DNA of 64,000 nucleotides. Origin: Bolinopsis microptera (taxonomy: Eukaryota > Ctenophora > Tentaculata > Lobata > Bolinopsidae). Numbering within the stretch: position 1 is the stretch's first letter; every line of letters starts with the position of its first letter. The notes beneath the pieces are model-generated. The model was not told the DNA's origin. It did no database searches and saw only the letters and a list, made by a program, of their open reading frames with translations. The DNA is taken from the NCBI RefSeq assembly GCF_026151205.1, contig NC_087076.1, positions 21,260,828 through 21,324,827 of the forward strand. The letters are read 5' to 3'. A program made the position numbers and the translations under genes. Positions 9,495-55,257 of the stretch are shown piece by piece.

Positions 9495-10416
9495 AAAATA
9501 ATTATTAGCATTGTAGGTAGCAGTAGAATATTCAATAATGAATACTCGGATTGTAAAATTACCATTTTATAGATATTTTGAACATGTGTTAAAAATGCAA
9601 TACGTAATGATTGATCAGGTTGCAAATTTGGTTGTTTAATTTCTGCAAAATTCTTTTTTTAAACGGCAAAATTAAATTGTTTTGGATTAGTTGAGTTAGT
9701 ATTTAGTGGGCAGCTAGCTATTGAGATAATTGTTTTCTAAATTGAAGATGTTAGATTTTTTCTCCTGATCTGAAATCAAGAATGAATTAGTAATAGTATG
9801 CTTACTTATTTATATTGTAAATCTAGTGAATATAGATATTATAACGGATCTTTAAGTTTTCTAGTGCAGGACACGTTGAGCTCAAATAACAGGTGATGGA
9901 CTTCACTTGCTGTAGTTTCAAATTTCAATTGTAATCTTTGGTGTGTAAAACTCATTCATTTCTGTTCAGATAGAAAATTTTTGTGAACATTTCATTTTCT
10001 ATGTATCTTACGAGATGTTAAACGACGTTATGAATCTTCAATATTGGATTTTTGTATACGAAATTCGACTCAATACATTCTTATAATTTGAAGTTTTATT
10101 CCAGAGTCTTAAAATCCAATTAACTTGGTAAATCCACATATCACGAAAAAATTCGTTTCACACTTAAATTATTTCTCACACATTGTCGTATTTAAAGTCA
10201 TTTCCCGAATTTCATACACTCCTTTAAACATCTCATCTTTCTACCTATTCAATTAGCTTATTTAAGGGTCATTTTATAAGTAAGTGTGTCAATGTGAAAA
10301 GATATCTTGCAGCCTGTTTGATTTTTTACATGCATTTACCACCGTGTTTATATATTTCCAGTTCTTGTGTCCTTCACTCCTTTCAAAGCTCTAGAAATGA
10401 ATGGTTTAGAAGATTA
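9495..10416. other. SNX27 3' UTR and intergenic
   Basis: AT-rich, with no open frame of interest. It should hold the SNX27 3' UTR and the MTHFSD-like promoter. A CAG acceptor-like site at 10359-10361 after a TATATTTC tract precedes the next gene. Confidence 0.5.
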
Positions 10417-11166
10417 ATGGAGGTGAAATCAGAGGATCCCAAAAAAGCGCTCAGAGAACGCATATGGGAGGTGATGGAGAGAGAGCAGCTTGTTCCATAC
10501 CCACTCCCCCTCACAGGCCGTATCCCCAACTTCTACAACAGTAAAAGTGCAGCCTACAAACTGTGTTCCACAGGAGAGTTCCGCTCTGCAACTACCATCA
10601 AGATACACCCCAGCCTCAATGCTGAACCACTGCGGCACCTCGCTCTAAAGTTCGGTAAAAAGGTCCTGACCCCACCGTTACCCGGGCACGATTTCCTCTA
10701 CTACCTACTTGATCCAGCGTGTATTGAACCTGCCTTCCACAAGTTTGCTGCCAGTAAGAGAGGGTTCAACAAGTTAGGTATTCGCTGTAAACTCTCGGAA
10801 ATACCTCCAGTAGATCTGGTGGTGGTAGCAAGTGTTGCCTGTACTCTGCAGGGTGCTAGAGTTGGTAAAGGTAAGGGCTACGGAGAGGTGGAGTATGGGA
10901 TACTCAGGGAAATGGGTGTGGTGGACGACAATGTGACAATTGCTACTGTTGTTCATGATGCACAGGTTGTGGAAGGTAGTTGTTTGCCCCTGGAGTCTCT
11001 GTCGTGTCATGATGTCCCCGTTGATATTATCTGTACTCCAACTAAAGTGATCAGAACTATGACTAGTGTTCCAAAGCCGGGAGGGATATTTTGGGAACTT
11101 ATTTCCGAGGTGATGATGGATGATATCGGGGCGTTAAAAGAATTGAAGTCGTTGAAACAGATCTGA
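10417..11166 (+). CDS. MTHFSD-like protein (5-FTHF cyclo-ligase-like fold), no RRM
   Basis: Single-exon protein of 249 aa from the ATG at 10417 (MEVKSEDPKKALRERIW). It matches the N-terminal domain of methenyltetrahydrofolate synthetase domain-containing protein: the RERIW start, RIPNF, VDLVVVASVA, the glycine-rich GKGKGYGEVEYG loop, VVHDAQVV, and TPTKVI. That domain has the 5-formyltetrahydrofolate cyclo-ligase fold. Vertebrate MTHFSD continues into a C-terminal RNA-recognition motif, but this frame stops at 11166 without one, leaving a one-domain version. A longer open frame upstream begins at a GTG and is probably 5' leader, since an acceptor-like CAG lies at 10359-10361. Whether it has ligase activity cannot be judged from sequence. 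Confidence 0.85.
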   Translation: MEVKSEDPKKALRERIWEVMEREQLVPYPLPLTGRIPNFYNSKSAAYKLCSTGEFRSATTIKIHPSLNAEPLRHLALKFGKKVLTPPLPGHDFLYYLLDPACIEPAFHKFAASKRGFNKLGIRCKLSEIPPVDLVVVASVACTLQGARVGKGKGYGEVEYGILREMGVVDDNVTIATVVHDAQVVEGSCLPLESLSCHDVPVDIICTPTKVIRTMTSVPKPGGIFWELISEVMMDDIGALKELKSLKQI

Positions 11167-11186
11167 GTAGGATGAAAAACTGAGCA

Positions 11187-11252
11187 GTCTTTAGTTAGTT
11201 TCGCTCAGAAACTTAGCAGTCTTTAGTTAGTTTCGCTCAGAAAGAAATAAAA
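11187..11252 (+). terminator. Poly(A) region of the MTHFSD-like gene with 32-bp duplication
   Basis: A segment starting GCAGTCTTTAGTTAGTTTCG is present twice in tandem just after the stop codon, followed by AATAAA at 11247-11252. Another AATAAA cluster lies near 11330. Confidence 0.6.
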
Positions 11253-11517
11253 TCACTTTTTGTAGCACTGTTAGTACCTTATCATCATCATCGGGCTTTT
11301 TTCTGTTAACCAGTTTTCCTTAGAAGCATAAATAAAATAAAATTGCTAACATTTTTATATGAATTCTCACTCTATTATAATATTGACATCAAATCTCTCA
11401 TACTATCTGCGGCGGTTTTGTGCACTATATTATAATACTTGTTACTATATTATAATACTTGTTACTATATTATATAATTACTTGTTACTTGTACTAAACT
11501 CCATTTATACCTGTAGG

Positions 11518-14500
11518 ATGAGCTCGAAGAGCAAGAAAGCAGACGCTGAGAAGTTCCAGCACCAACTGTTGGAGGTACTGAAGGATGATCCCAACAGAGT
11601 GTGTGCTGATTGTAGAGCTAGAGGTCCTAGATGGGCAAGTTGGAACTTAGGTTGGTTGCAAGTTAATAGCTTACATTATAATTTATATATGCGATTAATT
11701 TTGACTGAGCATTATATTTTAGTTAATCAATAATTTATACAGTACTTTGATTGGATTGATTTATTGTTATCTTCTTAAGAAATCATGAGATGCACGGTAA
11801 CTAACCAATTTAATCATAAATAAACGATATTTTTCAAATTCCATCAAAAGCTTGCGTCCACTCGTTCAGTAATTGGGGTAATTTGATAACAAGTTACAAT
11901 AATCTCCTCCCAGGTGTTTTCATTTGTATAAGATGCGCTGGTATGCATCGTAACTTAGGAGTGCACATTGCTAAGGTTAAATCCGTCAACCTCGATACAT
12001 GGACTCAAGAACAGGTAAACACTATTTCGCTAATTATGTATGAAAAGTGCAGCATATTTCTTCAAACTATTTGCACATTTCTCACATTTTTCTAACTCGA
12101 CAAGATTTCTGTAAAAGAAGGCACAGAAAATATGGCTGTAATTTTTGTCCAGCGTATGACAAGCTAGACTGTGGTAAATTGTTTGTCGACTTGTCCTTAA
12201 AATCTTAAGATTTTAACCTGCGGAAGTGTTTATATAGTGAGATGCTCTCTGAAAACTTCAAAATACATGTATTTAGCTTTATTAGATTGCAGGTCTCACT
12301 GTACTAGGTACTGAAGATTAAGGGTTATTCTGTTGGAATTTATAGGACGTGTTATGGTGTGCTCTTAGAGTGCGTCCTATTACAAAACTCAAAACTCTGT
12401 TCCTATTCCTGCACACTTTCTTATAATCTAATTTTTTTTCTATGGGGCCTCCTGCAAAACTCTTTTGTTGTTCTCCACCATCCTTGTAATCTCCACTTAT
12501 TTTGATTTGCCGTATTATGGTCTGGTTTAATATGACCCTCAATTTTCATTTAACGGATCATTTCTAATAATAACTGACGTCTGACAGTTAAATATGGAGA
12601 CTAGAAGAATGGAGACTAGAAGTATTCTTACTATGTAATTTTTACGCACAAGCCATGATAATGTACGAGCCACGAGGTAGCGTATTACAGTTCTACCGTT
12701 TTCCTGCTCAAATTACAACTTTACATAAGATTCTAAATTTACAGAGAAATCCTCCCAGGTAAGGTACATTAACCACACTAATATACAATACACCTAACGT
12801 AAGGAGATGACACTGTACTACAACAGTAATGTTAGAAGTAGGATGTACATTAATAACAGATACCGTACATTACACTACATTACAGTAACACTACACTGTA
12901 CACAGCTGTCTGTATGGTAATCAGCTGTCAGGACTCAGGATACAGTTTCAGTATTATTATTCTAGAAGCTTTCCCCGGAGGAGCAGCTCTTTAACAATAA
13001 CTTGACACTGTGCCTGGAATGTGAGGTAGAGATAGTCGGCATGTTAGGACTTTGGCACTTATCACTACAATGTGATTGTTGAATGTATGTCGAGACACAG
13101 TCCTTTTAAAAAATGATTTCAAATTTAATTCTGAATTTCTTGGCGCCAATTAGCAATACCTTGTCTAACTATTTAAAATTGCCATGAAGACGAGCGCTTT
13201 TGAATGATCGGAATCGAATTTCTGCTAAATTTACATAACTACACTGGATTTAAATGAGCCTGTAGTAAAGTAAATATATAGAGTAACCTGACATCCAGTA
13301 AACACTGACCTGGTTCTCATTGTTCTCCTCATTGTTCTCAGTCTATATTATATACAATCAGCATTAACACAAGACGTATTGGGCTGAGGGGGGGGGGGGG
13401 GCAATTGGGTTAAATGAGAATCTTATTATCACCACTTTAATTAGCACGTACATCACAATGTATGTTTAAACACCTGAGTCTAATTATCACCCAGCTATAA
13501 TCACTGTAATCCCCTGTAATTAGAATGTACTCTGTATTAAAATGTATTGTGTATTAATTGTATGTACCAATCACTTATAACCAGGATCTTCAGATCGCAT
13601 AATTATATAGCTGACAAAATAATTATATGCTTTGAGAAAATCGAATTACAGCTTTATAGTTTATATCTTTTTAGCTGCACCCGAAGACACATAAACAAAC
13701 ATAATATGTACTCCTTTATAAAAATATGTGTCCACAAAAAAGCCTTAATTTTACACAAGCAAAGACCATGCGAATATACTGAATATAGATTCCTTACTAG
13801 AGTTAACTCGTCTTAATCCCTCTATATTATTAGCTAAACTGAGTTAGTACTGAGTACAATGTATATACTTTACTAGAGACAGATACCATCAAGAACCAGT
13901 ACTTAGTCCATAATATGTCAGTATGTACGAGAACCAGTGGCTATAGACGTAACCTAGGGAGATGTCGCGCCAGTTAAAGCATACTATTATATGGGCAATT
14001 TCATGAAACATGAACAAGGAGGGGAAAAAATAAATTTCAGTTATGAAACTAGCTTTGATTGGAGTCTGAAAGAGAAGATCATAAACTGTAAGACACAAAA
14101 AACCGCTTATAAATATCTCACTTCGTTTCTGTGTTATCGCGTTTTCAAAATACCCATAAATTGTCATGTTTTACAGGCCAAAACTACTCTATAATAAAAG
14201 CTGTTTACTAAAAAGAGATTGTTGTAATATTCATTAATTCTTGATCTGTAAAGGTGCATACCACTTCACTGGAGCTGTATGCAAAATTTGGGACTCAAAA
14301 TTTAAGCAGATTCGGAGCAATGCTATTCTACTTTCTCCTGTTTTTAGTGTAAATTACTATACATAAAAAACAAAAAAGTTTTCTGCTGGCCACATTTCAT
14401 GTTATTTCTTGCTGAAATCTTGCTAAAACAAGCTAACTCTGATGTCAAGACATAATGTACTTGTTTATTTAGATCCATAGATATCAGATCATGTCAATAC

Positions 14501-17500
14501 CAGCGTCAAGTAAGTTACATGTCAAGTAATTTACGTGTCAAGTAATTTACACATATGCTTTTTATTTAGTAATAGTAGTAAAACACAACAAGTAACGATT
14601 GTCAAACAGAATAAAAGTTATTTAAAAGTGATAATAGATTGGTTCTGGTCAGAATTTCATTAAAGAAATCTATAAAAATGGTTAAAAATGGTTAAAAATT
14701 GACTTTTCGAAAATAATACTTTACTTTACAGAAAATCCAGTGGCCTGCTTGAACACAAATTTTTGAGCTGGGAAACATTCGTACATTTACGCCCACCTAC
14801 CTACTCTGTATAACTGGGCTAACTGTGGACCCAATCAGTGGATCAATCAACCAATTAAAGGGGCCGGGGGTCTTCATCAAAATTCCCTCGAAATTGACTT
14901 TTTAGTTGTTTCTGATAGAAGGGAGTGATATCTATCAGATGCTTTTGGTCCCATGGAAAAATATTATTCCTAGCCGAAATTATTGTCGGTCAAAGGTCAG
15001 CACTTATGTGTAATTGTATTGCGCAAGCGATTTTCAATCACGTGTCCTGAAAATCGAGTCTAAAAATCTATCTTCTCCTACATTTTTTGAGCAATCACCC
15101 TGAAACTTTCAGGATATGTTCTAGAGATAATTTAAAAGAGATGAGCCAGACAGAATTTTGAGATAGGCCTTTAAACATATTTTATTCGATTTTGAAAATC
15201 TTGGACCTCGTTTTTTGACGATTTTTTGAGGTCCAAGATTTTCAAAAATTGAAAATCGCTCGCACAATACAATTACACATAAGCGCTGACATTTGACCGA
15301 TCATAATTTCGTCTAGGAACAATATTTTTCCATGGGACCAAAAGTATCTGATAGATATCACTCCCCTTTATTAGAAACAACTATAAAGTCAATTTCGAGA
15401 AAATTTTGATGAAGGCCCCCACGGCCCCCTTAATTGGCTTATGATAAACTGATATATCATTATTAATCATATATTACATAGTTCATACACTTAGCAAACT
15501 AATTAAAGACAAAGGGGCAGCTTTAAACAGTTAAAATCAAAGGATTGTGTAACAGTGTAAACTACTTGACACAAAAGAGTAACTTACTTTACAAGGAACA
15601 AAGGCTTCTACAGAACACAGCTATTAACCATTTACCAAAACAAACCCTTTCCAGTACAGGCAAGACATTTGCCAGTGTGCATGAAAAATATTTAAATGTT
15701 TACTCTCACACCTGGGCACGAAATGAGATTTCAATACACGTTGGTCAGGAATGTCAATTTGTGCCCTGTAATTTACTTTACATTTTCAAACGTGCCTCAC
15801 TCAAAAGCCATAGCAGTTGGAGTAAAAATCTTAATATAGCTGTGTGTGGAGTACATAGGAGATGTTTCATGCAATTTATCATGATTCTGTTATGTTTGTG
15901 TAATGCTTGAGAGTCAGAATAAGGCCAAATTTTTGTGCAAAGTGTAATTTACTTTACGTGAAATCGCCCATATAGTAGTGTAGATTCATTGTGAGTATGA
16001 TATATCCCAGATTGGTGACAATACGATTGTAGCCACAATATAACAGTCAATCTAACCATTAGCAGATACAATACAGAGCACAAACAGCAGGTACAATCAT
16101 GACACCATTGTTACTAGGCTTTTATCACAGCTTTATAACTACGTTATATACCGGTATATATACCCCAGTTAGTGGCTTCAGAGTGGTAAACCTTTACGCG
16201 CTGGTATATTCTAGCTGCCTGCTCAGCTGTAACAGTGAGCAAACTGAGCAGAAACAGTGAGCAACCTGAGCAGAAACAGTGAGCAAACTGAGCACATAGT
16301 AGTCTTGTGCATACAGTGCTCCGGAGAAGGCTGCTTGCATTGCTCCCTTCAAGGTGCTAGCACATTACCGTACCATATAAGGGCTCGGAAATGTTATTGC
16401 CTGACTAGAGAACAGCATTGGAAGTTGGAACCCAGGATGATTACTTGTGCTCTAATGTCCTCAGGACAAAGATGCACTTAGTTTACTGGTAAACTGTGAT
16501 GAAAGGCAGCAATGAGTTCTTGCTAAATTGTAATAGTAACTAGCCACTACCAAATCAACGAACTCAGTATGAAAAGGTCACTTCTTTTCCAACCATTTTG
16601 AGTTCCTCTCTGAGTCAGTATCAAGAAGCGAGTGAGTATCTTTCTTTGATGCGTTTATTGGTTTCAAATCCCAATATAATGCAGTGTCACTTGCAACTAT
16701 GAGCTCATTTGGTCATCTTTTTTGGCATTTGTTTTTAGCAACAAACTACCAGTTCTCTGTAGATGAAACCTAGATAAATGACCACTTACTGATCATAAAG
16801 TATAGCATAGTGGACAGTCGTGTACCATTACAACAAACAACAAGATACAAGGGCAGGTCTCTCCCACAAGTTGGGATGGCCTGAGGTGCTTTAAATCTCC
16901 TTTTCGGTAACCCTAAGCCACTCTGTGCCGAGGCACTATACTAGCTGTAGGGGGTTAGTCCTACGAGCCAGAGAGTGTGTATCACCAGCCGAAGCTGTAC
17001 CAAATCACAGCTTGGTAACTGGCCGACTTGCATCCGACCGGATTTGAACCCGGGCCTTCTGCTTGGTTGGCGATCGTGTTACCACTACACCGCCGGCCAT
17101 TACAGTACGCCGTATATTCTATTATTCTAGTTGCCTACTCAGTCGTGATGTACGACCTACTATTCACTAATGTGTTTAATGTTGCAGAAATATCCGGAAA
17201 TGAGGGATGTTATAACTTGAATTATGTGTATATAAGGTACACACAGGTTTACTATGACGTAATATGACGTAGTATGACGTAATATGTCACGTGCTGGTGT
17301 TATTGGAAGCCTGCAGCATGTTGCTAACAAAATTATATAGACAATGCCATATAAGGGCATGTAAGACCATAAATTACGTATTTAATACTGTGCGGTAAAC
17401 TTAAGGATCATAAGACAATGACTGGATAGGATTATTATTGAAATCAACAACAAACATAATATAAAGGGGTATATAATATGACCAATTACTATATTACAAT

Positions 17501-20500
17501 ATACATGTATTTAGGAGTTAGAATGGTATGTTTAAATTAATACCATATTCCTACGTCATTAGACCATAACTTTACGTCATTGATTACGTCATTGATTACG
17601 TAATTTTAATGTTATTGATAGCCTGTAGAGTGTAGGGAGATGCTAATTTCTGGGTATGTATAATTAATACCATACCATATATTAGGGTATATGGCCATAT
17701 TACATTATGTATTTACCAGACAATATGTTATTCACAACATACTACAAGGTAGTTACAACGTAATCGAACTCCACCTTATCACACATATTTTCTTTAGGAA
17801 TTTACAGGATCTTCTCACGTGCCAAATATTTAAAAATACTGGGAATACTTTAAATCAGGTGTCTAAAACTTAGTATTAAAACTGTTTGACAGAAAGTTAA
17901 TTAGGTTTAAAAAGATACAGCGTCACGTTAATAGATCCTGTATTTATTGTGTAATGTATTTCTGTGGTGAATGCGAATTAATTGTTTCGATTTAACGTTG
18001 CTAGCTTCAGTGTTTGCAACATGTTTTAACTTACAGTATTTTGCTTTTTGTGAGTGATCCTACAAGACTTTACAGTCTTTGAGAGCCTAATTAGCATAAT
18101 TAATATCTAACTGGCTTAACTAGTCGGCATTCATCTCTGAGAAGTTGTTATAGTAAGTTTTTTAAATATTTTGCCTGATTAACATTCACAATTATCATTT
18201 AACATAAATTATAAGTTATTTAACATAAATTATAAGTTATTTAACATAAATTATAAGTTATGTTAAGGTTCGGAGATATCAAGAATATTATAATACTTTT
18301 GAAGCAATTTTGTGTCTATAATTATTTTATATATATTTTGAAATAAACATTGATCAGTAAGCAAAGCTGGTCACAAATCATTCACAATAAATTAAACCAG
18401 GTAGGGTGAAATTTCAAACAATACCAACCGCCAACTTCATATTTTTCACAATAATTATTAATTCTTGTTATAAAACTCTGCTTAATAATAAACAGTGCTG
18501 GCTGTTTGGGTTGACCTTATTTTGTAACATCATCCAGTAACGGCCCTAACATTGTTTAAAAGGTTCCACAAGACCCTTTGTGTGGATTATTATTGTGTAA
18601 CTAATAACTATGTGACTAAGGATAATTTGAGTCAGTTTTAGTGTACATCAGCATTCCTGCTATTTTATACTCGATAGTGTGTACAATAACTATATAGTAA
18701 CAGGAACCCGCCCAATATGGTAGGTTTTAATAGGGACCACAACATAATATAGGAACACGAGCTATGCGAGCATACTTTACGTACGTACGTGGCCTGGGCG
18801 AACCTAAAATGGTGTAATGACAAACTTGCATACCGAATAATCATTTTCTCTGTCTACCTAATTAAACATCTCCACTTCAGTTGGACAACATGTTAGCCTG
18901 GGGTAACGCCGTTGCAAATTAAACATCTCCACTTCAGTTGGACAACATGTTAGCCTGGGGTAACGCCGTTGCTAATTAAACATCTCCACTTCAGTTGGAC
19001 AACATGTTAGCCTGGGGTAACGCCGTTGCAAATTAAACATCTCCACTTCAGTTGGACAACATGTTAGCCTGGGGTAACGCCGTTGCTAATTAAACATCTC
19101 CACTTCAGTTGGACAACATGTTAGCCTGGGGTAACGCCGTTGCTAACGAGTTCTACGAGTACAAACTGCCTAGTGACTTCAGACGCCCCTCCGACGATCC
19201 GGGAGTGGAGAAGTTCATACGGAACAAGTACGACAAAAAACTGTACATCCACGAGAACTTCGACTACGCAACCAGCGTCAAGAACCACCCTGGTAGTGGG
19301 GGTGGAAGTAAGCCGGCGGCTAAGCCCGGTAAAGTGGCCGGTAAAGTGGTGCAGCCGGCGGCTATTAATGCTCCCGTTAGGAGCATTCCTGTTGTTCCGC
19401 TCAAGACCAAATCCGAGGTAAATATTATAGACTATCCTGTCTTAATTAAAATATACTCAGCAACACAAGATGTTAGATTCGTGTATGATATCGAAATGGT
19501 GGATAAAGTTTCAAGCCACTGTATTATATTATGGCAGTGTGTTTATTATGGCAGTGTATCTACTGTATATTCTATTACTTTTTACAAGAATGGCGTACAA
19601 TGTTTACCGTCGTCCAAGTCGATAAAACTATATTAATCGTTCTATTTAAAAACTATATTAATAGTTCGGCCTAAACTCAAAAGTAAGATTGTCATCATGT
19701 TATCATGTATACATTTGACGAACACTCATGATCGATATGCTGCGAGCTGTCAAGCGTACATAATAATACTAACTTACTAATACACATTAGTGCACTTTAT
19801 TTATAGGGTAGATATTATGTATTCTGTTGTGATGTAGGTGAATACCATTGAATATATTAATGCGTTTTAGCATGATATTGCGTAGTTGTATAATAGGACA
19901 AATCCTAAGTACAACAAATACGCTGCTATTGTAATCTCAATAACATATTCACGACGACTGTACAATGACTTTATCACGATTCCATAATATATCATTGACG
20001 TTTTTTCAAGACATAGATCGTAATGGTTATTATTAATATGTATAATATTTTGTGATTTCATGATTCATCCAATATTTGTATTACCATTCAGTATGATTTC
20101 AATGGTGCGAAAAAACAATGACATTAATAGTACGAAGTAGCGAATATGTATGATATCTGAATATTAATGATAGATAATATCTTAGTTACAAATAACTCAA
20201 TATATTGACTTTTCAGGCGTACGTTCCACCTAAAGTGGCAGCAAGAAAACCAGCACCTGTTGTTGCAAAGCCCCCAGCTGAAGTACCCAGCTTACTACAG
20301 GTACTTTTAGTGTTTTAAATACATAGTATTATATCGGGTTATACACAGTATCGGTACTAACTGTGTAGTGTATATGAGGGCCGTGGGGGGGGGGGGTATT
20401 TTTGTTAAATTTGTCCAGAAACAACCAGAAATAGATCCTCTCCCCCGTGTTGTCACGTTAATATATACAATAAAAGAGAAGGTATGGGTTCCATGTAATT

Positions 20501-21923
20501 AGTATCCAGTAATGATGCTATGAGGTGTACCTGTGTACTGTGTAGTGTGTACTGTGTATGTACAATGTATTGTGTGTTATATTATTATTGTTAAATCTTA
20601 GGACGTTATTCATCTAAACTGCCTTACACTTATCATTACTAAGACGTACTTAAGAGTATTAGAAACTGCCTTAATCTCTTATTAATATTAAGACTTATTG
20701 ACTTTTGCTAGACATAATATCGAGAGCTATGTTACAGAATATTGTTCACTTGTTCACCTAACAGAACAAAACCCCGCAGGTATCAATGACCTCAGCAACC
20801 CCAGCCCCAGTGTCTTCAGTAAAGTCAGATCTGGTTGATATATTCGGAGACATGGTATCAGCAGCCCCCGCACCTGCTGCTCCTGCCACCTCTGCTGCTC
20901 AGCCACCTGCTAGTAATTTACTAACGGACACTAAAGAGGAACCCAAACAGAGCTTTAAAGACTCCATAATGTCCCTGTACGCTGCTGCACCTCCCGCTAA
21001 CTTCGGACAACCCGCTCAACAGTTTGGAGCTGTACCTCAGTCTAACGGACAGTTTGGAGCTGTACCTCAGTCTAACGGACAGTTTGGGACCATGCAGAGT
21101 AACGGACAGTTTGGGGCACAGAATACCGGACAGTTCGTGATGCCCCAACAGAAAGCTCAGTTCGGAGCCCAACAACAACAACCTCCACGATTCAGACAGC
21201 AGTTTGGGCAACAACCAAACCTGATGGCAATGCCACAGCAGCAGCCACAGCAACAGCAGCAGCCACAGCAGCAGCCTCAGCAACAGTTTAATCCCTCTGC
21301 CCAAATGTTTGCTGCAAATCATCAGTTCCAGCAGCCTAACGGACAGCAATTCGCCCAGTTTAACCAACAAGGGATGCCAAATGGTATGGCACTGAATCAA
21401 GGGGTGCAAATGAAAAATGTCCAACCCATGAATATGCAAGGTATGCAGATGAACGGAATGCAGGGAATGAATAATATGCAAGGTATGAATAACATGCAGG
21501 GTATGAATAATATGCAGGGTATGAATAATATGCAGGCAATGTACATGGGACAGCAGCAGCAGGGCCAGCAGCAGGGCCAGCAGCAGGGACAGCAGCAGCA
21601 TTTTGGATATAATATGGGACAAGTCAATGCAGCTAATCAACAACAACAATTCGAGAGCGTCCAGCGTCAACTACAACAGTTAAAGGTACAGGCTCCAGCT
21701 GCTTTTTACACATTTCATTGTTTGTTCATACTTTTGGTGTAGTTTTAAATGTAGGTAGCTGAATAGGTAATGACTGGGAGGTGGTGAAGATTGTTTGTCG
21801 AAACAACTTTTAAACAATCATTATCTTACAATCATTATATCTTACACATCACTTTTCTAGGTGGGACAAGCACAGCAATCTCAGCCCCAAGCAGGATGGG
21901 CTCAAGCCTTTGGATCAAGCTGA
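11518..21923 (+). CDS. SMAP-type ArfGAP (stromal membrane-associated protein)
   Basis: ArfGAPs of this family stimulate GTP hydrolysis on Arf1/Arf6 and act in clathrin traffic. Six exons: 11518-11650, 11914-12014, 19109-19417, 20217-20300, 20765-21685, 21861-21923. All have GT-AG borders and join in frame to give about 536 aa. The zinc finger is CADC-x16-CIRC, split by intron 1. The arginine-finger region [16 protein letters not shown] and the [21 protein letters not shown] motif match SMAP1/2, followed by [20 protein letters not shown]. The C-terminal half is low complexity: a DLVDIFGDM acidic motif, Ala/Pro stretches, [10 protein letters not shown] repeats and NNMQGM repeats, like the Met/Gly/Asn/Gln-rich tail of SMAP2. 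Intron 2 is 7.1 kb and ends in a tandem array of splice acceptors. Paralogue identity (SMAP1 or SMAP2) cannot be assigned. Confidence 0.93.
12600..14850. other. SMAP intron 2, first part
   Basis: AT-rich intron DNA with scattered short open frames that show no family features. A 14-base G run lies near 13388. Nothing else is recognised. Confidence 0.5.
14851..15437. mobile_element. Long foldback element, 587 bp
   Basis: The first about 210 bp (starting CCAATTAAAGGGGCC) return as a diverged inverted copy ending GGCCCCCTTAATTGG. Shared inner blocks include GAGTGATATCTATCAGAT, TGGTCCCATGGAAAAATA and CTTATGTGTAATTGTATTG. The centre has a second, shorter inverted repeat around TTGGACCTCGTTTTTTGACG. 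Non-coding. It sits in SMAP intron 2. Confidence 0.85.
15438..16832. other. SMAP intron 2, middle part
   Basis: No gene recognised. A short direct repeat of GAGCAAACTGAGCAGAAACA occurs three times with variation at 16236-16292. Confidence 0.4.
16833..17096 (-). mobile_element. tRNA-derived SINE with 8-bp target duplication
   Basis: On the minus strand the element opens with a tRNA-like head: an A box in TGTAGTGGTAACACG and a B box GGTTCAAATCC about 40 bases later. A roughly 190-bp body follows and it ends in TTGTTGTTTGTTG. CCATTACA flanks it on both sides (16825-16832 and 17097-17104), a direct target duplication. Pol III-type internal promoter and target duplication together support a SINE rather than a tRNA gene, since the 3' acceptor half is not followed by a matched stem. 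It lies antisense inside SMAP intron 2. Confidence 0.85.
18195..18260. repeat. 21-bp tandem repeat x3
   Basis: TTTAACATAAATTATAAGTTA repeats three times head to tail in SMAP intron 2. Confidence 0.85.
18861..19145 (+). repeat. 57-bp tandem array of the SMAP exon-3 splice acceptor (5 copies)
   Basis: The unit begins ATTAAACATCTCCACTTCAG and continues into the first bases of exon 3 (TTGGACAACATGTTAGCC). Copies begin at 18861, 18918, 18975, 19032 and 19089, so the five acceptor AGs end at 18880, 18937, 18994, 19051 and 19108. Copies 1 and 3 end GCAAAT and copies 2 and 4 end GCTAAT, which points to a 114-bp dimer being duplicated. Only the last copy runs on into the open frame. Each upstream copy meets an in-frame TAA after 13 codons. 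Each copy also holds CTGGG|GTAACG, a possible donor. Confidence 0.95.
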
Positions 21924-23082
21924 CATTGTCCAGATATCTACTCTTAACAAGCCACCGAGCCTCATCCTGACCTTGACTACACTGTAGAATCGTAGGTCGC
22001 GTGATGTGAAACTTTGGATTGGGGGAATGTTGATAATTCACAACATTTTGTTATTTTACGTTTCCTTGCTCGTCTGTCAGAGGTTTTCAGGACTGGTTGA
22101 AATGTGTTGAATTATTACTAGTTCGTGTGCCTTATATATAATTGATTTATCTTGTCACGGTGTAACTTGAAGCCAATTTAAATCGTCTTGTTTCTCTTGC
22201 ATGTTAAAATATTCTGTCGTCTGTACGGAGGCAAATTAATAGCACCACCGTGGAAAGTAGCACATTATACCGAAAACAAAAATATTTTATATTCTTGATA
22301 CATATTCTGATCACGTGATATTATGAATATCTCATGATCTGCTTTAATTCCGCCCCTCCCTGTTAATTTGCCTCGATAATGGGCGATTTCTTCTGTTAGC
22401 TGCTACTCACAACCAAGGAGTTGTATTATTCAGATTTAACGCTGATTTTTTGTCGCAATTGATTGGAATTACTAATGAATTTGACCACCGATGTAATTAT
22501 TGTTTATAGATAATAGTTGAAATGCAACCTATTATGATTTGAGTTTTACTTCTTCATGATCACGATGCAGTTACGTCATTATTTTGTGTACAGCTAGCAC
22601 TGTCGTGCAAGCATAACTGAGCAAACACTTTAATCTCGAAGATGACGTGGCCCCGTTGCCCGTGTTAAATTGTGAAAATTCAGTCAGACTGTTTGTTGAA
22701 ACTGGACAATTTACATCGCCCAATAACTTTGAAGCGAAGAAATGACTTTAGTCAAATTGGTGAGATGTGGGTGCGTCATGACCTGGATTAGCCGTATACT
22801 TGACCTCTATGACCGCATATGGCATAATAAGGTTGTGCAACAGCGCTGTCGCGATCACAAGATGATCATACAAAGTGTGATTTGGCGCACGAGAAGATTT
22901 ATCACGCGCACTACGTAATTGAACACATCGTAGGGTATATATCACACACACAGGATGTGGTTTGAATGATCGTAATTTCGCACTTCAATGGAAATTAAGA
23001 GATTCAGCTGATCAATAAAACATTCTAGATGGCAAGAGAAACTAAATCAACCGGCATTCCCTTAGGAAAATCTGCTTCTCTG
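21924..23082. other. SMAP 3' UTR and intergenic
   Basis: No further coding exon is recognised. The SMAP 3' UTR should lie here. An AATAAA is seen near 23013. Confidence 0.45.
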
Positions 23083-30105: not shown

Positions 30106-30195
30106 TATGTAAAACCGTTTTGTACGGTTGTAAAACCATAAAAACCAAAGTCACGTGAAATTTTTGGGCGAGCGAATTAGTAAGAGCCCGGTTCC

Positions 30196-31586
30196 ACTTA
30201 GAATTAGACCTCTCCATGGAAACACAGTATTCCAGTATATTTATTTCTAGTTCCTGGCATCCAATAATTTAATTTCATTCCCCTTGATGGTTCCAATTAG
30301 AATTAGACCTCTCCATGGAAACACAATATTCCAGTATATTTATTTCTAGTTCCTGGCATCCAATAATTTAATTTCATTCCCCTTGATGGTTCCAATTAGA
30401 ATTAGACCTCTCCATGGAAACACAATATTCCAGTATATTTATTTCTAGTTCCTGGCATCCAATAATTTAATTTCATTCCCCTTGATGGTTCCAATTAGAA
30501 TTAGACCTCTCCATGGAAACACAATATTCCAGTATATTTATTTCTAGTTCCTGGCATCCAATAATTTAATTTCATTCCCCTTGATGGTTCCAATTAGAAT
30601 TAGACCTCTCCATGGAATCACAATATTCCAGTATATTTATTTCTAGTTCCTTACATCCAATAATTTAATTTCATTCCCCTTGATGGTTCCAATTAGAATT
30701 AGACCTCTCCATGGAATCACAATATTCCAGTATATTTATTTCTAGTTCCTGGCATCCAATAATTTAATTTCATTCCCCTTGATGGTTCCAATTAGAATTA
30801 GACCTCTCCATGGAAACACAATATTCCAGTATATTTATTTCTAGTTCCTGGCATCCAATAATTTAATTTCATTCCCCTTGATGGTTCCAATTAGAATTAG
30901 ACCTCTCCATGGAAACACAATATTCCAGTATATTTATTTCTAGTTCCTGGCATCCAATAATTTAATTTCATTCCCCTTGATGGTTCCAATTAGAATTAGA
31001 CCTCTCCATGGAATCACAATATTCCAGTATATTTATTTCTAGTTCCTTACATCCAATAATTTAATTTCATTCCCCTTGATGGTTCCAATTAGAATTAGAC
31101 CTCTCCATGGAATCACAATATTCCAGTATATTTATTTCTAGTTCCTGGCATCCAATAATTTAATTTCATTCCCCTTGATGGTTCCAATTAGAATTAGACC
31201 TCTCCATGGAATCACAATATTCCAGTATATTTATTTCTAGTTCCTTACATCCAATAATTTAATTTCATTCCCCTTGATGGTTCCAATTAGAATTAGACCT
31301 CTCCATGGAAACACAGTATTCCAGTATATTTATTTCTAGTTCCTTACATCCAATAATTTAATTTCATTCCCCTTGATGGTTCCAATTAGAATTAGACCTC
31401 TCCATGGAAACACAATATTCCAGTATATTTATTTCTAGTTCCTGGCATCCAATAATTTAATTTCATTCCCCTTGATGGTTCCAATTAGAATTAGACCTCT
31501 CCATGGAAACACAATATTCCAGTATATTTATTTCTAGTTCCTGGCATCCAATAATTTAATTTCATTCCCCTTGATGGTTCCAATTG
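30196..31586. repeat. 99-bp minisatellite x14
   Basis: Fourteen units starting GAATTAGACCTCTCCATGG at 30201 and then every 99 bases to 31488. Two main variable sites are seen: AAACACA or AATCACA, and CCTGGC or CCTTAC. Units 5, 9 and 11 carry AATCACA with CCTTAC. Units 6 and 10 carry AATCACA with CCTGGC. Unit 12 carries AAACACAGT with CCTTAC. The rest are the AAACACA/CCTGGC form. The repeated 5-6 and 9-10 pairs point to block duplication. No coding content. Confidence 0.95.
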
Positions 31587-35604: not shown

Positions 35605-36839
35605 TAGGCTATCCACTCCGATAATCGTAACCGATAATTATCTCCGATAATTCGTTAAAAAAAGTTATCTGTTTATCTAGATAAAACATATTTTTATCGG
35701 TATAAAAATTCACTAGATATTATCGAAAATACTGCCACAATACCGTACAATTGTAAAGAAATATTAGTGTTTTTGCCTTCCCAAGTATTCCAAGAAACAG
35801 TCCCAAACGTCTTCTAGTATAATAGAAGAGGTAGTTTACTAAGATGTGAGCTTAAGAGGTTTTAAATTTACATTTGTATACCTATGGAACTGTAGAACTG
35901 TATGAACTGTTGAAATCCAGAGAAGGTTATTGACATTGTTCTCTTGTATTGAGGTGCTGGCGTTTTACCTTATAATCATTCTGGAGATGGGAACGAGCAT
36001 GTTACTGTTAACAAGAGTCAAAAATACCGGCAGGGCACTCAATTGAATTCCGTAAGTGTTCTGGGCGTGAAACATTGTCTTCAGGAGAAGGAATCTGTTG
36101 CTCCAAGTTATCAACAGAATAAGAAAACGGTTCACTGAATCACTTTAAATGCTTTACTGTTTCGAGGAGATTTGGTATTTGGTGCACTACTGTTCTCAGG
36201 AGAAGGAAACCGTTGGTCTACTGTTTTGAAGAGAACTATTACACTACTGTTCTCAGGAGAAGGAAACCCTTGGTCTACTGTTTTGAAGAGAACTGGTAGT
36301 ACACTACTGTTCTCAGGAGAAGAACACCGGTGGTCTACTGTTTTGGAGAGAACTATTGCGTTACTGTTCTCAGGAGAAGAAAAACGGTGGTCTACTGTTT
36401 TGAAGAGAACTACTAGTGCGTTACTGTTCTCAGGAGAAGAAAACCAGTGGGGTCTACTGTTTTGAAGAGAACTACTGCGTTACTGTTCTCAGGAGAAGGA
36501 AACCGTCTGTCTACTATTTTGAAGAGAACTGGTACACTACTGTTCTTAGGAGAAGAAAACCGTTTGTCTACTGTTTTGAAGAAAACTGGTGCACTTCTGC
36601 TCCCCGGAGAAGAAAACTGATGCTCTAATATTTTCAAAAGAAAGGAAGTGGTACTTTAGAAAGATTACTGGAAAACAGTAATAAAAGTCGACAATTAGTT
36701 TTTGCGAAATTTGGAAAACATTTTGGCTTTGGCCTTCAGCATAAAAATTATCGGTTTTATCGGTTTTATCTCTAGATAAAACCTAAATCTTTATCTGTTT
36801 ATCTAGATAAAAGATTTCATACCGATAATGGATAGCCTA
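35605..36839. mobile_element. hAT-type MITE inside the LINE, 8-bp TSD
   Basis: TIRs TAGGCTATCCA and its inverse are flanked by GTCCGGCA on both sides (35597-35604 and 36840-36847), the 8-bp duplication of hAT elements. Removing the element and one duplication restores the LINE frame exactly through SRMPDTRLPKYLL. Inner ends share AGATAAAA-rich inverted sequence (GTTTATCTAGATAAAA). Confidence 0.93.
36130..36625. repeat. About 60-bp minisatellite inside the hAT MITE
   Basis: Roughly eight diverged copies of a unit containing TTACTGTTCTCAGGAGAAG and CTACTGTTTTGAAGAGAACT, length varying about 53-63 bp. It explains the open frames seen on both strands here. Confidence 0.85.
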
Positions 36840-38212
36840 GTCCGGCATTCTAGAAACATGTCCAAACCAGCGAAGACGGTTGGCACTGATGTTGGTTATA
36901 ACCGGGTTTATTCTTGCCCGCTCCAACACTTGAACATTGCTCGTCCGGTGGAACCATTTAATTCGAAGGATTCTCCACAAACAGTTTTGATGGAAAACTT
37001 CGAAGCGATGTAGTTGCTTTGAAGTAGTGTTCCAGACTTCGCTTCCATAAAGTAATATTGTTAGAACCGCTGCAACATATATCCGTATTTTGGTGTTAGT
37101 TTGGATATTGCGATTCTTCCAAATATTACCGAGCTGATTGAATGCTCCTGAGGCTTTCTGGATCCGTGCAGACAAGTCCCGGTCAATAGTCCCATCACTT
37201 GATATAATCGACCCAAGGTAAGTGAAGTTGCTGACTTGCTGGATAGCCGTGTCTCCCACTGTAATGTCCACCGTTGATGCTTCAGTATACGGCCTCTGTG
37301 ATGTATTCTTGCCGATGGCCATAACCTCTGTTTTCTTCGCATTGATTCTGAGGCCAGCCTGAGCCGCATACTTGCATAAAAGATCAGTCGTCTCCTGGAG
37401 ACCGTCCTTGGTGTTGTCCATGATAGCCAAATCATCTGCATAGTCAGTATCCAAGACGACTGTATCCTGACCAAAGCTGGTGGTAGCTCTCTGCAGCACT
37501 GCCCCGTGTGACAACACTTTGTTATTCTCAGCCCGCTGCGCAGGCAGGTTGATGCAAACATTAAAGATAGGTGGACCCTGAATATCCCCCTGCCCAGAAC
37601 CAGATGTAACGTCAAACCAATCTGAGAGCTCACCATTATGTCTGACAGAGCTGACGGTGCCGCAAAAGAATGCTTGCATTATGCGAATGTATTTACAAGG
37701 CAAGCCATAATGACTGAAAGCTTTCCAGATAAACTCCCGATTAAGTGAATTGAATGCAGCTTTAAAGTCAACAAAATCTAAGTACAGGGGGAGGTTAAAC
37801 TCAATGCTGTTGTGAATAATAGTACGGAGCGAATAAATCTGATCAATGCAAGACCTTTTTTTCCTGAACCCGCACTGATTCTCTCGGAGCAGTTCTTCAA
37901 GCCCCGCATTCATCCGTCGCAACACTATTATCTGATAGAGTTTTGATGCCGTGGAGCGTAGGGTTATGCCCCTGTTGTTCGAGCAGAATGATGTATCACC
38001 CTTTTTCGGGACAATAACAATGATACCATTAACCCAATCCTCTGGCACATTCTCCGTCTCCCAAACACGTGCAAACAGTTTCTCAAGCCTGTCTAAAAGA
38101 CCAGGAGCCCATACTTCAGCTGTTCGTTGGAAATTTCATCAATTCCAGAGCTCTTGTGATTCTTCAGACTCTTTAAAGCCTCAGAGATCTCTGTTCTGCA
38201 TGTGTGTAATCA

Positions 38213-49657: not shown

Positions 49658-52600
49658 ATGGGTGATCGTCCTTTTATTGTCGGATTTTCCTTCGGAATTC
49701 TCCCTGTTATCCTCGCTTACTTCAAGGTTCGATGAATTATGTATTTTTATTTTTAGGGTACGGGTATTTGCCTCACAGAATGGCCAAAAAAAAGGAAGGT
49801 CTCTCAAAGTCACAAAACACACTTTATTCCAGTTTTTATCTCATAAGAAGCTAAGTTGACACTCATATTTTTCTTCCCGGGGGTTCATTTAATCTCATAA
49901 CCATTTTTTCTTTGAGAAAAATTGGCCGGAAAATCTTCCTCCAAAAAAACATGCCTCACAGAATGGCCAAATCTGAATTTCTATAATTTTTTTGATGGAG
50001 ATACTTTTTAAATTTCTATCACCACACGTTCTTAGAAAACCTATTAAGGAATGGGGTAATAACCTAAAACTCACGAAAAAACTGAGCTGTGAAAAATTAT
50101 TTCACAAAAAAGAAAAAATGCCTGACAAAATGGCAAAAAAAAAAGAAAACGAGAAAATTTTATTTTTCTAAAACCTTTGGCTCTTGTTTCAGGCATGCTG
50201 CTGGTATTAATATGCCTTGTTAACACCCCCATATAGGTGAAATTTCTTAGAACTGAATAAAAAGGGCATAATTTCCTACACCAAAAATGGCCATTTTGTG
50301 TGGCGTTGTTCATATTCCCTGATTTCATGATTTATAACCTTCATTCGGCTGTAAAAACACTCCATCTGGGGTGTTATTGTATGATAAATAGCTTGTGAAT
50401 ACTTTAGACTTATGGTTTCATTGAATAAAAGGAGTTTTAAATTTTGGCCATTTTGTGAGGCGTTTAGCCATTTTAACATTTTGTTTCTTCCTAAATTGAA
50501 CAATGTTCGTTTTTTTTGATGAATACTATTCTTTAAACATCTTCTGTCATACTGGTGCCAGAAGTTCTCACCAAAATGCAAACTTAGTTCAAAAATTTGA
50601 AAACAAATTTTGTGAGGCATATTTTGGCCATTTTGTGAGGCGTGTAGCCATTTTAGCATTTTGTTTCTTCCTAAATTGAACAATGTTCGTTTTTTTTGAT
50701 GAATACTATTCTTTAAACATCTTCTGTCATACTGGTGCCAGAAGTTCTCACCAAAATGTAAACTTAGTTCGAAAATTTGAAAACAAATTTTTCAGTGCTC
50801 AAAATTTCTACATAAACAGTCATATTTATGCCAGAAAATGTGGTCCTAGTTAATGATTTCACCACAGGAAGTGTTGTCAGAAGACTTTTGTTTCATATGG
50901 GGGGGGGGGGGGGGGGGGGGGGGGGTGTCACCTCCGTCTATGTCCGCTTGTCTCATAGAATCCAAAAAGGACAGGACATAGACGGACATAGGCGGACATA
51001 GGCGGACATAGGCGGACATAGACGGACATAGGCGGACATAGGCGGACATAGGCGGACATTAATGGACACCTAAATTGCTAAATAAAATGTTCAATTTTTG
51101 CTGTTATAGGGGGATCATGTTTTTGTCCGTTCGGTACCTCTATATTTTCAAAACGGACAAAAAATAGAGCGGACAAAAACGGACAAAAATGGACAAAAAC
51201 GGACAAAAATGGAAATAACATTTAGATGCTTCCTCCTCCTACTCTTCCTCCTCCTCCCCCTGGGTCTTCCTGATCTTCCTCAGTCCTCTTCCTCCACCCC
51301 TCCTCAGTCCTCCTCCTACTCCTCCTCCTCGTCCTCAGTCCTCCTCATCAGTCCTCAACAGTCCTCCCCCTCCCCAGTCCTCCTCCTCCTCCCCAGTCCT
51401 CCTCCTGGGTCCTCCTCCTGGGTCCTCCTCCTCCTCTTCATCCTCCTCCTCTTCCTCCTCAGTCCTCCTCCTCCCCAGTCCTCTCCCAGTCCCCCTCCTT
51501 CTCCTCCTCCTATTCAGTTCTCCTCCTCCTCCTCCTCAGTTCTCCTCAGTCCTCCTCCTGAGTCCTCCTCCTCCTCAGTCATCCTCCTCAGTTCTCCTCC
51601 TCCTCCTCCTAGGTCCTCCTTCTGGGTCCTCCTCCTCCTAGGTCCTCCTTCTGGGTCCTCCTCCTCCTCCTCCTCCTCCTCCCTCTCAGTCATCCTCCTC
51701 AGTCATCCTCCTCAGTCATCCTCCTCAGCCATCCTCCTCAGCCATCCTTCTCAGCCATCCTCCTCAGTACTCTTCAGTACTCTTCAGTACTGTTCAGTTC
51801 TCAAAATGTTTGTCCGCTAATGTCCACAAATGTCCGCTAATGTCCACCAATGTCCATCCAAGTCCGCCAATGTCCGTCCGGGTCCGCCAATGTCCGTCCG
51901 AGTCCGCCAATGTCCGTCCGAGTCCGCCAATGTCCGTCCGTGTCCGCTAATGTCCCAAAAAACACGTCCGTTGTCTCATAGAATCCAAAAAGGACAGGAC
52001 ATAGGCGGACATAGACGGACATGACACCCCCCCCCCCCATATGGTATCCACAAAACCTACCAGTCTTTTATAAAAAATTAGTTACAAAAACATTTACAAA
52101 TTTGGCCATTCTGTGAGGCTAGCCATTCTGTGAGGCATTTACCCGGGATATTACTTTCACCTGTTCCAATTTCACAGCATCAAAAACTCCTGATTAATCT
52201 AGCCATTAAGGCTAAGTTTTGGAACTTAGTTTTGGAACATTCTCGAATGTTCAACAAGTATTTAAAATAATTATTCTCTATTATTTCCTCAGAAACATGA
52301 ACAATATTTCAGGGGTGGCTATGGTTTCCTGCTGAACTGACATGGGAGAATCAAGGTTTTCTGATACTGTGTGCTATTGTCACTTTTAGTAACTACCTGA
52401 ACGAGTATCTCCAGTGGTACCCTCTCCAGTACAGGTAGATAGGACCTCTAAATAAGACCTCTAAATAGGACCTCTAAATAGGACCTCTAAATAGGACCTC
52501 TAAATAGGACCTCTAAATAGGACCTCTAAATAGGACCTCTAAATAGGACCTCTAAATAGGACCTCTAAATATGACCTCTAAATAGGACCTCTAAATATGA

Positions 52601-55257
52601 CCTCTAAATAGGATCTCTAAATAGGACCTCTTAATAGGACCTCTAAATATGACCTCTAAATAGGATCTCTAAATAGGACCTCTTAATAGGACCTCTAAAT
52701 AGGACCTCTAAATAGAACCTCTAAATAGGACCTCTAAATAGGACCTCTAAATAGGACCTCTAAATAGGACCTCTAAATAGGACCTCTAAATAGGACCTCT
52801 AAATAGGACCTCTAAATAGGACCTCTAAATATGACCTCTAAATAGGACCTCTAAATATGACCTCTAAATAGGATCTCTAAATAGGACCTCTTAATAGGAC
52901 CTCTAAATAGGACCTCTAAATAGAACCTCTAAATAGGACCTCTAAATAGGACCTCTAAATAGGACCTCTAAATAGGACCTCTAAATAGGACCTCTAAATA
53001 GGACCTCTAAATAGGACCTCTAAATAGAACCTCTAAATAAATCCTCTAAGACTATTTATACGTGTTTTTAGGATCTTGTTTAAGTGATCATAATAATAAT
53101 CTCCATTATTATATATATTATAACAGGCAGGACCTATGAATAAATAGGTGTAGAGAATGGGTGTAGATCTATTTGTATCGCTATTGAAATATATATTAAG
53201 TTTAGAATTTTAATTAATTTACTGTATCGTGTACATGTCATAGTTAGTTCTGGTATATCAGTGCTTCAACAGTATCAGTGCTTTCTTTCAATTCAATAAT
53301 AAATGTTCCAACATTTATAACAACCACAGTGCACAGTAACCACATTAACCACAGTAACCACAGTAACTACAGTAACCACAGTAACTACAGTAACCACAGT
53401 AACCACAGTAACCACAGCACATTAACCACATTAATCACATTAACCACAGTAACTACAGTAACCACAGTAACCACAGTAACCACAGCACATTAACCACATT
53501 AATCACATTAACCACAGTAACTACAGTAACCACAGTAACCACAGTAACCACAGCACATTAACCACATTAATCACATTAACCACAGTAACTACAGTAACCA
53601 CAGTAACCACAGTAATTACAGTAACCATAGTAACCACAGTAACCACACTAACCATAGTAACCACAGTAACCACACTAACCATAGTAACCACAGCACATTA
53701 ACCACATTAATCACATTAACCACAGTAACCACAGTAACCACAGTAACCACAGTAACAATAATGTTTCAGTAAGTTCGCTCCAGAAGGGGGGTGTCCCGCT
53801 AGAGTTGGGTGGTTCATCATGTACTCCACTCCCGCTTTAGCTTACGTTATTGTCTGGAACTACCTGGGTGCTCCCACCAGGTCAGATTTACAGTGTTTTG
53901 GGAAATTTGACAGGATTAGTTTTTAAGGAATATCGATAAAGCGTTATTTGTTCAGAGTAAGAAGTTTTCCAAATAACCAAGCTGTCCCCCCAGTTCGTAC
54001 GATCTGCTGATGTTGGGTTTATACTGTACTCACTTCACTAAACGGTGTCTGGAGGTGCTATTTGTACACAAGTACAGTAAGGACTGCCTATTTCTAACTG
54101 TTATCGAGGTACGCTTCTCATCGCCTGTTTCTCACTTGTTTATCACTTGTTTCTCACTTGTTTCTCACTTGTTTCTCACTTGTTTCTCACTTGTTTCTCA
54201 CTTGTTTCTCACTTGTTTCTCACTTTTTCTCACTTTTTCTAACTTGTTTCTCAGTTGCGTTATAAACATTTCGTCCAGTCCCAGCATAAAATATTGAATT
54301 AACTGAACATTATCATGCTCCTGTTATTTAATACCTTACACTTAGTTTTTAGACGATACACACTGTGTTTAACCCTGCCTTTAACACTGCCAGACTGTGT
54401 AATAATACAGTACACACTACACGTGTTTGTTTCAGATAGCCTCTTTCTACTCGCTTGGAGCTGTGGTTACCGCATACTCTCTCCACAGACTCTCTGGACC
54501 TGACAGAAACTCTTTCCTTGACGATGAGGTTTGCTATAGTGGACACACTTCGAAAATATTTCAAGCCTATTAATATCGGATATAATTAAAAAAGAAGAAA
54601 ATAAAAGGAAGATTGGATCTGATAGGTTGAGCAGATTGAAGCCTAAACCAGGTTTTGCAATGTACTTGTATCTAACTAAACCCACTCCCCTGCAGCTACG
54701 AGTGAAAGTAGGACTCTGTATCTGGGTAACAGGGCAGCTGATTAACCTGGTCCACCACTACATTCTCTCTACTCTCCGGTCCCCTGGGTCCTACAAGTAC
54801 ATTGTCCCTACTGGGGGGCTGTTCGGACTCATTGTCTGTCCTCAGTACTGCGGGTCAGTTAGAGTGTGTTTACCGAGTTGTTAATTGTTTCTAATTTAAG
54901 ACTTTGGACAAATAAAATGATCAATCTTTCTACATGAATTTGAAGCCTCTTTTAGAAGCAACTGCTCAGTGTATTTTGAAATCTTACTTTTGAGCTAACA
55001 GATTATATATTAATAGCAAAACAGTCATGCTCTTTTCTTTTAATGATTTTATTTTTGTAAATAAGTATCCTCCCAGAGAGCTGACATCGTGGTTGGGATT
55101 CGGTCTGATAGGATACAGTTTCGGAGCGTTTGTCAACTACGTTCCCATGGTAGCGTACCTCTGTGCACGTGCACATCACACTTATAGGTGGTACGGTACC
55201 AAGTTTGATGACTATCCTGGTAAAGGTACCATGAAGCTGTGGCCTTGGGTTTACTAA
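49658..55257 (+). CDS. Steroid 5-alpha-reductase family membrane enzyme (SRD5A-like)
   Basis: NADPH-dependent reductases of this family act on 3-oxo-delta4 steroids or related lipids in the ER membrane. Seven exons: 49658-49726, 52313-52434, 53770-53880, 53994-54108, 54436-54528, 54696-54853, 55077-55257. All borders are GT-AG and phases agree, giving about 282 aa with several hydrophobic helices. Exon 4 gives LGLYCTHFTKRCLEVLFVHK, matching the HYxxRCLIYP region of SRD5A1. Exon 6 gives TGQLINLVHHYILSTLR, then SYKYIVPTGGLF. The exon 6/7 junction gives CPQYCGELTSWLGF and exon 7 ends with RAHHTYRWYGTKFDDYP, the family's C-terminal HH..WY..KF.DYP signature. The start lies 4 bases after TTATTCTAG. 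Substrate cannot be decided; SRD5A1/2-like is more likely than TECR. Introns are swollen by repeats. Confidence 0.9.
50894..52043. mobile_element. Nested G-run element with GGACATAGGC repeats
   Basis: CATATG plus a long G run then TGTCA at the left is inverted at the right (TGACA, C run, CATATG). Next to each end lies the same-orientation block TGTCTCATAGAATCCAAAAA followed by GGACATAGGC units. In the right half the CCAATGTCCGTCCGAGTCCG units point the other way. It occupies the middle of the 49761-52145 element. Confidence 0.7.
51225..51800. repeat. CTCCTC / CAGTCCTCCTCC pyrimidine tract
   Basis: About 575 bases almost purely pyrimidine on this strand, with CAG interruptions and TGGGTCCTCC variants. 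The 203-codon Ser/Leu/Pro open frame across it is an artefact of the trinucleotide repeat. Such a purine/pyrimidine tract inside an intron may form triplex DNA. Confidence 0.9.
52441..53046. repeat. 13-bp minisatellite (GGACCTCTAAATA) from the intron 2 donor
   Basis: About 46 units begin within a few bases of the exon 2 donor. Variants (ATGACC, GGATCT, CTTAATA, AGAACC) recur in the same order in two blocks (52560-52740 and 52830-53040), showing segmental duplication inside the array. Confidence 0.95.
53325..53760. repeat. 9-bp minisatellite (AACCACAGT) up to the exon 3 acceptor
   Basis: AACCACAGT units with a higher-order insert (GCACATTAACCACATTAATC) that recurs four or five times, ending 9 bases before the TTTCAG acceptor of exon 3. 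Purine-rich sequence replaces most of the expected pyrimidine tract. Confidence 0.93.
54121..54253. repeat. 11-bp minisatellite (TTTCTCACTTG) after the exon 4 donor
   Basis: About ten units starting roughly 15 bases into intron 4. Confidence 0.9.

Follow-up and report, generated by a model that had tools for sequence, protein, structure and literature searches.

A tandem 57-bp repeat places five copies of a splice acceptor at a coding junction of a SMAP-type ArfGAP gene in Bolinopsis microptera

The SMAP locus

The window, a 64,000-nucleotide stretch of Bolinopsis microptera DNA, contains the predicted exons of a SMAP-type ArfGAP gene (Table 1). The coding exons join into one 1596-nt frame with a single final stop. 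The predicted protein contains an ArfGap domain (PF01412, E 3e-41) that is nearest to those of SMAP1/SMAP2, and its closest solved structures, 2iqj and 2crr, are both SMAP-type ArfGAPs; these matches bear out the gene identity proposed in an earlier note on this DNA. The alignment to 2iqj and 2crr runs without an insertion at the repeat described below, so a productive mRNA should carry the start of exon 3 once, from the fifth copy of the repeat. The ArfGap family has 11 matches in the genome, and three of these are exons of this gene. Exon 3 matches the genome once, and with exon 3 as the query no backup second SMAP gene was found in the genome. Hence, because of that single match, splicing to nothing but the upstream acceptors would leave the locus without full SMAP. 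With a length of 309 nt, and with exon 2 closing in phase 0, exon 3 could be skipped without loss of the frame.

Several other features lie in the gene. Exon 5 has two candidate in-frame acceptors, 20765 and 20780, which are 15 nt apart and give a protein with or without NKTPQ. The Q/M-rich part of the same exon (21019-21598) contains several coding tandem repeats with periods of 30, 27, 18 and 12 bp, all divisible by three. One base ahead of the SMAP start ATG is a good acceptor-like sequence (11477-11517, TACTAAAC...CTGTAG), a candidate for the end of a 5′ UTR intron or for a spliced-leader acceptor; trans-splicing occurs in ctenophores. Intron 2 contains an inverted repeat (14866-15038/15248-15420) with 173-nt arms that are 91% complementary and 209 nt apart, perhaps a foldback element. 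On the minus strand of the same intron, a tRNA-like B-box was seen by eye at 16960-17100 and may mark a SINE; ARAGORN called no tRNA there or elsewhere in the window. Outside the gene, an ORF on the minus strand at 36837-38135 resembles, by eye, a LINE reverse transcriptase.

Five tandem copies of an acceptor

A tandem array straddles the junction between intron 2 and exon 3. Tandem Repeats Finder (TRF) places it at 18858-19146 on the forward strand, with a period of 57 bp, 5.1 copies, 98% matches and a score of 564. When the array is cut at 57 bp, no two units differ by more than one base. Each unit consists of the last 23 bases of the intron, up to CAG, and the first 34 bases of exon 3, and the sequence downstream of the fifth unit (CTAACGAG...) is genuine exon 3. 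The five tandem copies described in the earlier note, at this junction and with this period, are thus confirmed by TRF and by the unit starts. Five 57-bp units at such identity cannot arise by chance, judging from their sequence. Head-to-tail units within the range of ~10-100 bp, at high identity, make the array a minisatellite, or VNTR, and a 320-base query across it has one match in the 264.65-Mb assembly. Because the units are nearly identical, the array is taken to be young or homogenised. A single base varies among them: units read CTAAT or CAAAT, in the order T-A-T-A-T.

Table 1. Predicted SMAP exons, intron 2, and parts of the 57-bp array
Feature	Coordinates	Strand	Details
SMAP exon 1, coding part (predicted)	11518..11650	+	
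SMAP exon 2 (predicted)	11914..12014	+	Phase 0 at its end; 234 coding nt up to this point
SMAP intron 2	12015..19108	+	7094 nt with splicing to the fifth acceptor
57-bp array	18858..19146	+	5.1 copies; TRF, unit comparison
Copy 1	18858..18914	+	CTAAT branch-like motif; acceptor AG 18879-18880; exon-like start 18881; TAA 18920-18922 (in copy 2)
Internal donor-like GTAACG of copy 1	18903..18908	+	Weak; recurs every 57 bp
Copy 2	18915..18971	+	CAAAT replaces CTAAT; exon-like start 18938; TAA 18977-18979
Copy 3	18972..19028	+	CTAAT; exon-like start 18995; TAA 19034-19036
Copy 4	19029..19085	+	CAAAT; exon-like start 19052; TAA 19091-19093
Copy 5	19086..19142	+	CTAAT; exon 3 start 19109; sole copy opening into the SMAP frame
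SMAP exon 3 (predicted)	19109..19417	+	309 nt; phase 0-0
SMAP exon 4 (predicted)	20217..20300	+	
SMAP exon 5 (predicted)	20780..21685	+	Two possible in-frame acceptors, 20780 and 20765
SMAP exon 6, coding part to TGA (predicted)	21861..21923	+	

Could the number of copies be an error of assembly, the true number being lower or higher? Miscounting of tandem copies does occur, and polishing may make the copies more alike. However, at 289 bp the array is far shorter than long reads, its alternating base gives it internal structure, and the study behind the probable source assembly used long reads from PacBio libraries (PMC10232365). An artefact is very unlikely.

Frames and stops

All five exon starts proposed in the earlier note are present, each directly after CAG. 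As that note claimed, the fifth acceptor alone opens into SMAP, and the other four read 13 codons and then TAA. The stops reached from acceptors 1-4 lie 495, 438, 381 and 324 nt upstream of the predicted end of exon 3. Their positions match the usual geometry for nonsense-mediated decay (NMD), which is predicted here from the sequence. A stop brought in by an alternative site, 324-495 nt upstream of a later junction, also gives the array the architecture of a poison exon (AS-NMD). Since 57 is divisible by three (3 x 19), the repeat would read as 19-residue units were it not for the single TAA per unit that closes the frame; as a bold and unlikely conjecture, the array could evolve into a coding repeat inside the ArfGAP domain.

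One reading of these stops is that the array acts as a splicing sink. The upstream acceptors would take a sizeable share of splicing, stops and NMD would follow, and the number of copies would set the output of SMAP. The four acceptors that reach TAA well before the end of exon 3 fit this hypothetical reading. The near-identity of the units, which points to a young or homogenised array, counts against it, as does the RNA fold of the region, which is not special: the fold of 18841-19200 has a z-score of −0.19, and 43 of 100 shuffles fold at least as well. No structured RNA was matched in Rfam at the gathering threshold in 10000-23000. On balance we consider a sink unlikely, and tuning of SMAP output by copy number possible.

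Comparison introns and the internal donor

The splice signals of the array were compared with those of 41 introns that were inferred in this genome from genes for CCT and myosin. Scores were computed with generic weights for metazoans, and the 41 introns had been picked with these weights too, which biases that sample to high scores. The intron script took 74 of 108 gene matches (35 + 73) as input, with some matches within the fetched stretches also omitted. It passed over, uncounted, any adjacent matches separated by under 20 bp or by more than 12 positions of the profile, and it disallowed introns shorter than 40 nt; one further pair yielded no intron. For six of the 41 introns one of the two scores is under 2 bits, and these may be wrong; the other 35 lie above. 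In this biased sample, 13 of the 41 acceptors score lower than the array acceptor, at 4.2. At one of the myosin loci (L018), two stretches that encode the same part of the myosin head, with similar translations (G000:C3:9154012-9154203 and 9154255-9154485; profile positions 105-167 and 102-167), lie ~50 bp apart, and by their sequence look like duplicated alternative exons.

Each copy also contains the candidate donor CTGGG/GTAACG, as the earlier note had pointed out. If it were used, each pair of units would yield a 22-nt micro-exon and a tiny new intron, a form of intron gain for which a tandem duplication in a potato RdRp gene offers a precedent: both duplications cross an intron/exon boundary and carry a cryptic exonic donor. 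The sequence argues against such use. The donor is weak, with a score of 4.4 that is undercut by only 7 of the 41 inferred donors, and a C at +5, as in GTAACG, occurs in 3 of 41. The distance from this donor to the next acceptor is 35 nt, as against 98 nt for the shortest of the 41 inferred introns (script floor 40). Chains of one, two or three 22-nt micro-exons all reach a stop. With one micro-exon from each of the four GT sites of copy 1, a single form stays open, and its donor scores −7.4. A donor and acceptor usable for a new in-frame intron are thus not found in the sequence. The micro-exon suggested earlier is unlikely, and intron gain of the potato type extremely so.

A difference in the branch-like motif

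The five acceptors had been described as an identical 3′ splice site. This holds for the AG and for the ~20 nt that precede it; in the branch motif, however, copies 2 and 4 depart from the others. Over the last 46 nt ahead of the exon there is a single branch-like YTNAY motif, and the variable base sits in it. In copies 1, 3 and 5, the A of CTAAT is 19 nt from the exon. In the CAAAT units no YTNAY is left within the last 46 nt, and the sole NTAAY is GTAAC at 31. Thus, because copies 2 and 4 are without a branch-like motif, the five sites are not equal. This bears on the sink as well, since two of the four upstream copies are without the motif.

How much weight can this difference carry? Eleven patterns were tried in the region from −45 to −13 at the 41 inferred acceptors, against 300 shuffles. 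Among these 11, YTRAY was enriched (24 of 41 acceptors against a shuffled mean of 14.7, reached in 2 of 300 shuffles), as was TAAY (27 of 41 against 18.8, reached in 1 of 300). Enrichment was not clear for YTNAY (29 of 41, mean 25.0, 38 of 300 shuffles), CTAAY (6 of 41, mean 4.4, 75 of 300) or CTAAT (3 of 41, mean 2.8, 152 of 300), and CAAAY was at the shuffled level (4 of 41, mean 4.5). Because YTRAY and TAAY are enriched but YTNAY, CTAAY and CTAAT are not clearly so, the branch-site argument for unequal copies is a moderate one.

Origin of the array and its repeat context

The intronic CCTAATTAAAC and the exonic GCTAACGAG have CTAA in common. A tandem duplication between the intronic CTAATTAAAC and the exonic CTAACGAG, joined at this common CTAA, would have produced the first repeat; because the breakpoints share CTAA, a microhomology-driven duplication would explain the origin. 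A T-to-A change in one junction may then have been followed by duplication of a 114-bp dimer. The order T-A-T-A-T fits growth by such a dimer, as put forward in the earlier note, with one mutation. The alternation of A and T would thus reflect one mutation and a dimer step, or else repeated mutation or conversion.

Tandem arrays are common in the sequence sampled. Arrays with a period of at least 30 make up 6.0% of the window (~3822 bases, 289 of them in this array). Large arrays of any period in the window include those at 30190-31585 (99 bp x 14), 52439-53039 (13 bp x 46) and 36182-36642 (57 bp x 8). Arrays with a period of at least 30 cover 2.9% of 102,152 bases at 21 other loci, a set that omits three loci (L001, L005 and L011) overlapping the window and in which a single array at a CCT locus (L014) accounts for 1828 of the 2957 array bases. 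At 30 kinase loci they cover 1.0% of 112,971 bases. When arrays of every period are counted, 10 of the 41 inferred introns overlap one, and 1 of the 41 acceptors lies just past an array. At L014, a perfect 20-bp x 2.5 array (L014:2307-2355) occupies the branch/pyrimidine region of a CCT intron whose following exon is inferred from 2359, and a 30-bp x 61 array (L014:3049-4876) occupies most of a 2.4-kb CCT intron. Since arrays are common, and one of them adjoins a CCT acceptor, an array across an acceptor somewhere in the genome is no great surprise. The notable point is the position of this array on a conserved coding junction.

Comparison with known splice-site repeats

Two systems described in the literature are close to the SMAP array. 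The first is ABCA7, in which a 25-bp VNTR in intron 18 repeats a splice donor in about 12 to 427 copies (PMC5954066). The canonical donor there is the one that borders the exon; retention of one unit is reported at about 2%, independent of array length. Skipping of exon 19 is given as 12-45% depending on tissue and rises with array length, while expression falls (PMC5954066). In both arrays the splice site of a coding exon is part of the repeated unit, which gives a row of equivalent sites, and a switch to the neighbouring copy would retain one unit. Indeed, the acceptor sequence of a coding exon is present in all five SMAP units. They differ in that the ABCA7 repeat has a 25-bp unit with a donor and effects measured on RNA, whereas the SMAP unit has an acceptor, a branch motif and a coding start, in five copies read from the DNA. 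By analogy, the SMAP array would be an acceptor variant of a splice-site VNTR, of which ABCA7 is the donor-repeating example. A search of open-licence PMC literature found no multi-copy acceptor array among the matches listed, a weak negative. The correlation of ABCA7 array length with exon skipping and lower expression speaks for a splicing sink at SMAP. However, one-unit retention, the event most like the use of another copy, is reported there as unchanged with array length.

Second, a tandem duplication across an intron/exon boundary in potato RdRp is reported to have created a new intron with a cryptic GTAAG donor and RNA-seq support, the acceptor of the upstream copy still being in use (PMC4974935). 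Both duplicated boundaries include a putative branch site, a pyrimidine tract, an acceptor, an exon start and a cryptic exonic donor. The potato case is a single duplication, whereas the SMAP array has four extra copies, a poorer donor and no plausible in-frame new intron that we could find. In Drosophila, introns are described that arose through tandem duplication or that NMD sheltered (PMC2891723; PMC2809761). As at SMAP, duplication adds splice signals, and stops in mis-spliced products expose these to NMD; the Drosophila introns are new introns within exons, whereas in SMAP an existing intron has been lengthened by copies of its own end.

A probably near-silent array

With a probability of roughly 0.6, we read the array as a young minisatellite, made by duplication, in which unit 5 is mostly spliced, some splicing leaks to early-stop messages and the net effect on SMAP is small. 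Once a branch point has been chosen, the second step of splicing uses the first AG that lies downstream of it (PMC1431707). By this rule, the choice of acceptor here is a choice of branch site. The earlier question of how the spliceosome would pick the fifth site is a good one, though not as a choice among five equals. Unit 5 would mostly be used since it is nearest to the donor of exon 3 and is followed by real exon sequence, both of which would favour it under exon definition, and units 1-4 would remain within intron 2. Leaky use would fall on units 1 and 3, where the branch motif is intact, and less on 2 and 4. We infer that the resulting early-stop messages would be removed by NMD, perhaps alongside some in-frame skipping of exon 3, and that SMAP output would change little. 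The preference for unit 5 is suggested by sequence features and analogy, and three points may be set against it. First, proximity to the 5′ splice site could favour copy 1; Reed and Maniatis reportedly addressed such proximity in duplicated-site experiments in 1986. Second, potato RdRp, by analogy, keeps the acceptor of an upstream copy in use. Third, a splice-site array need not be harmless, because exon 19 skipping in ABCA7 is frequent and rises with array length.

If the first acceptor were preferred, the assembled haplotype could be a damaging allele that is poor in SMAP, with another allele or a leaky copy 5 sustaining the animal. In tests of duplicated sites, 5′-proximal acceptors often win, and the branch motif of copy 1 is intact. 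Haplotigs were removed from the probable source assembly, according to the Bolinopsis microptera study, such that a shorter allele could exist unseen (PMC10232365). Against this, with the four upstream copies set aside, the predicted SMAP frame runs open as far as its TGA, and no other match to its exon 3 was found in the genome. We regard a damaging allele as improbable. Quite unlikely, too, is a tunable acceptor array, in which the unit count, together with the lost branch motif of alternate units, would set the share of messages lost to NMD or lacking exon 3 in frame. If it were true, unequal exchange in a minisatellite would change the output of a regulator of membrane traffic.

What does such an array offer? 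To our knowledge, most studies of how identical acceptors compete have used built constructs. Here, a natural test of such competition is present within one gene, with units that are equal in the pyrimidine tract, in the AG and in the exon bases that follow. Alternate units differ by one base of the branch motif, and each choice shifts the mRNA by 57 nt, making the outcome readable. Junction use could tell exon definition, 5′ proximity and branch strength apart in this lineage. We see the array as a good natural test and not as a proven regulator.
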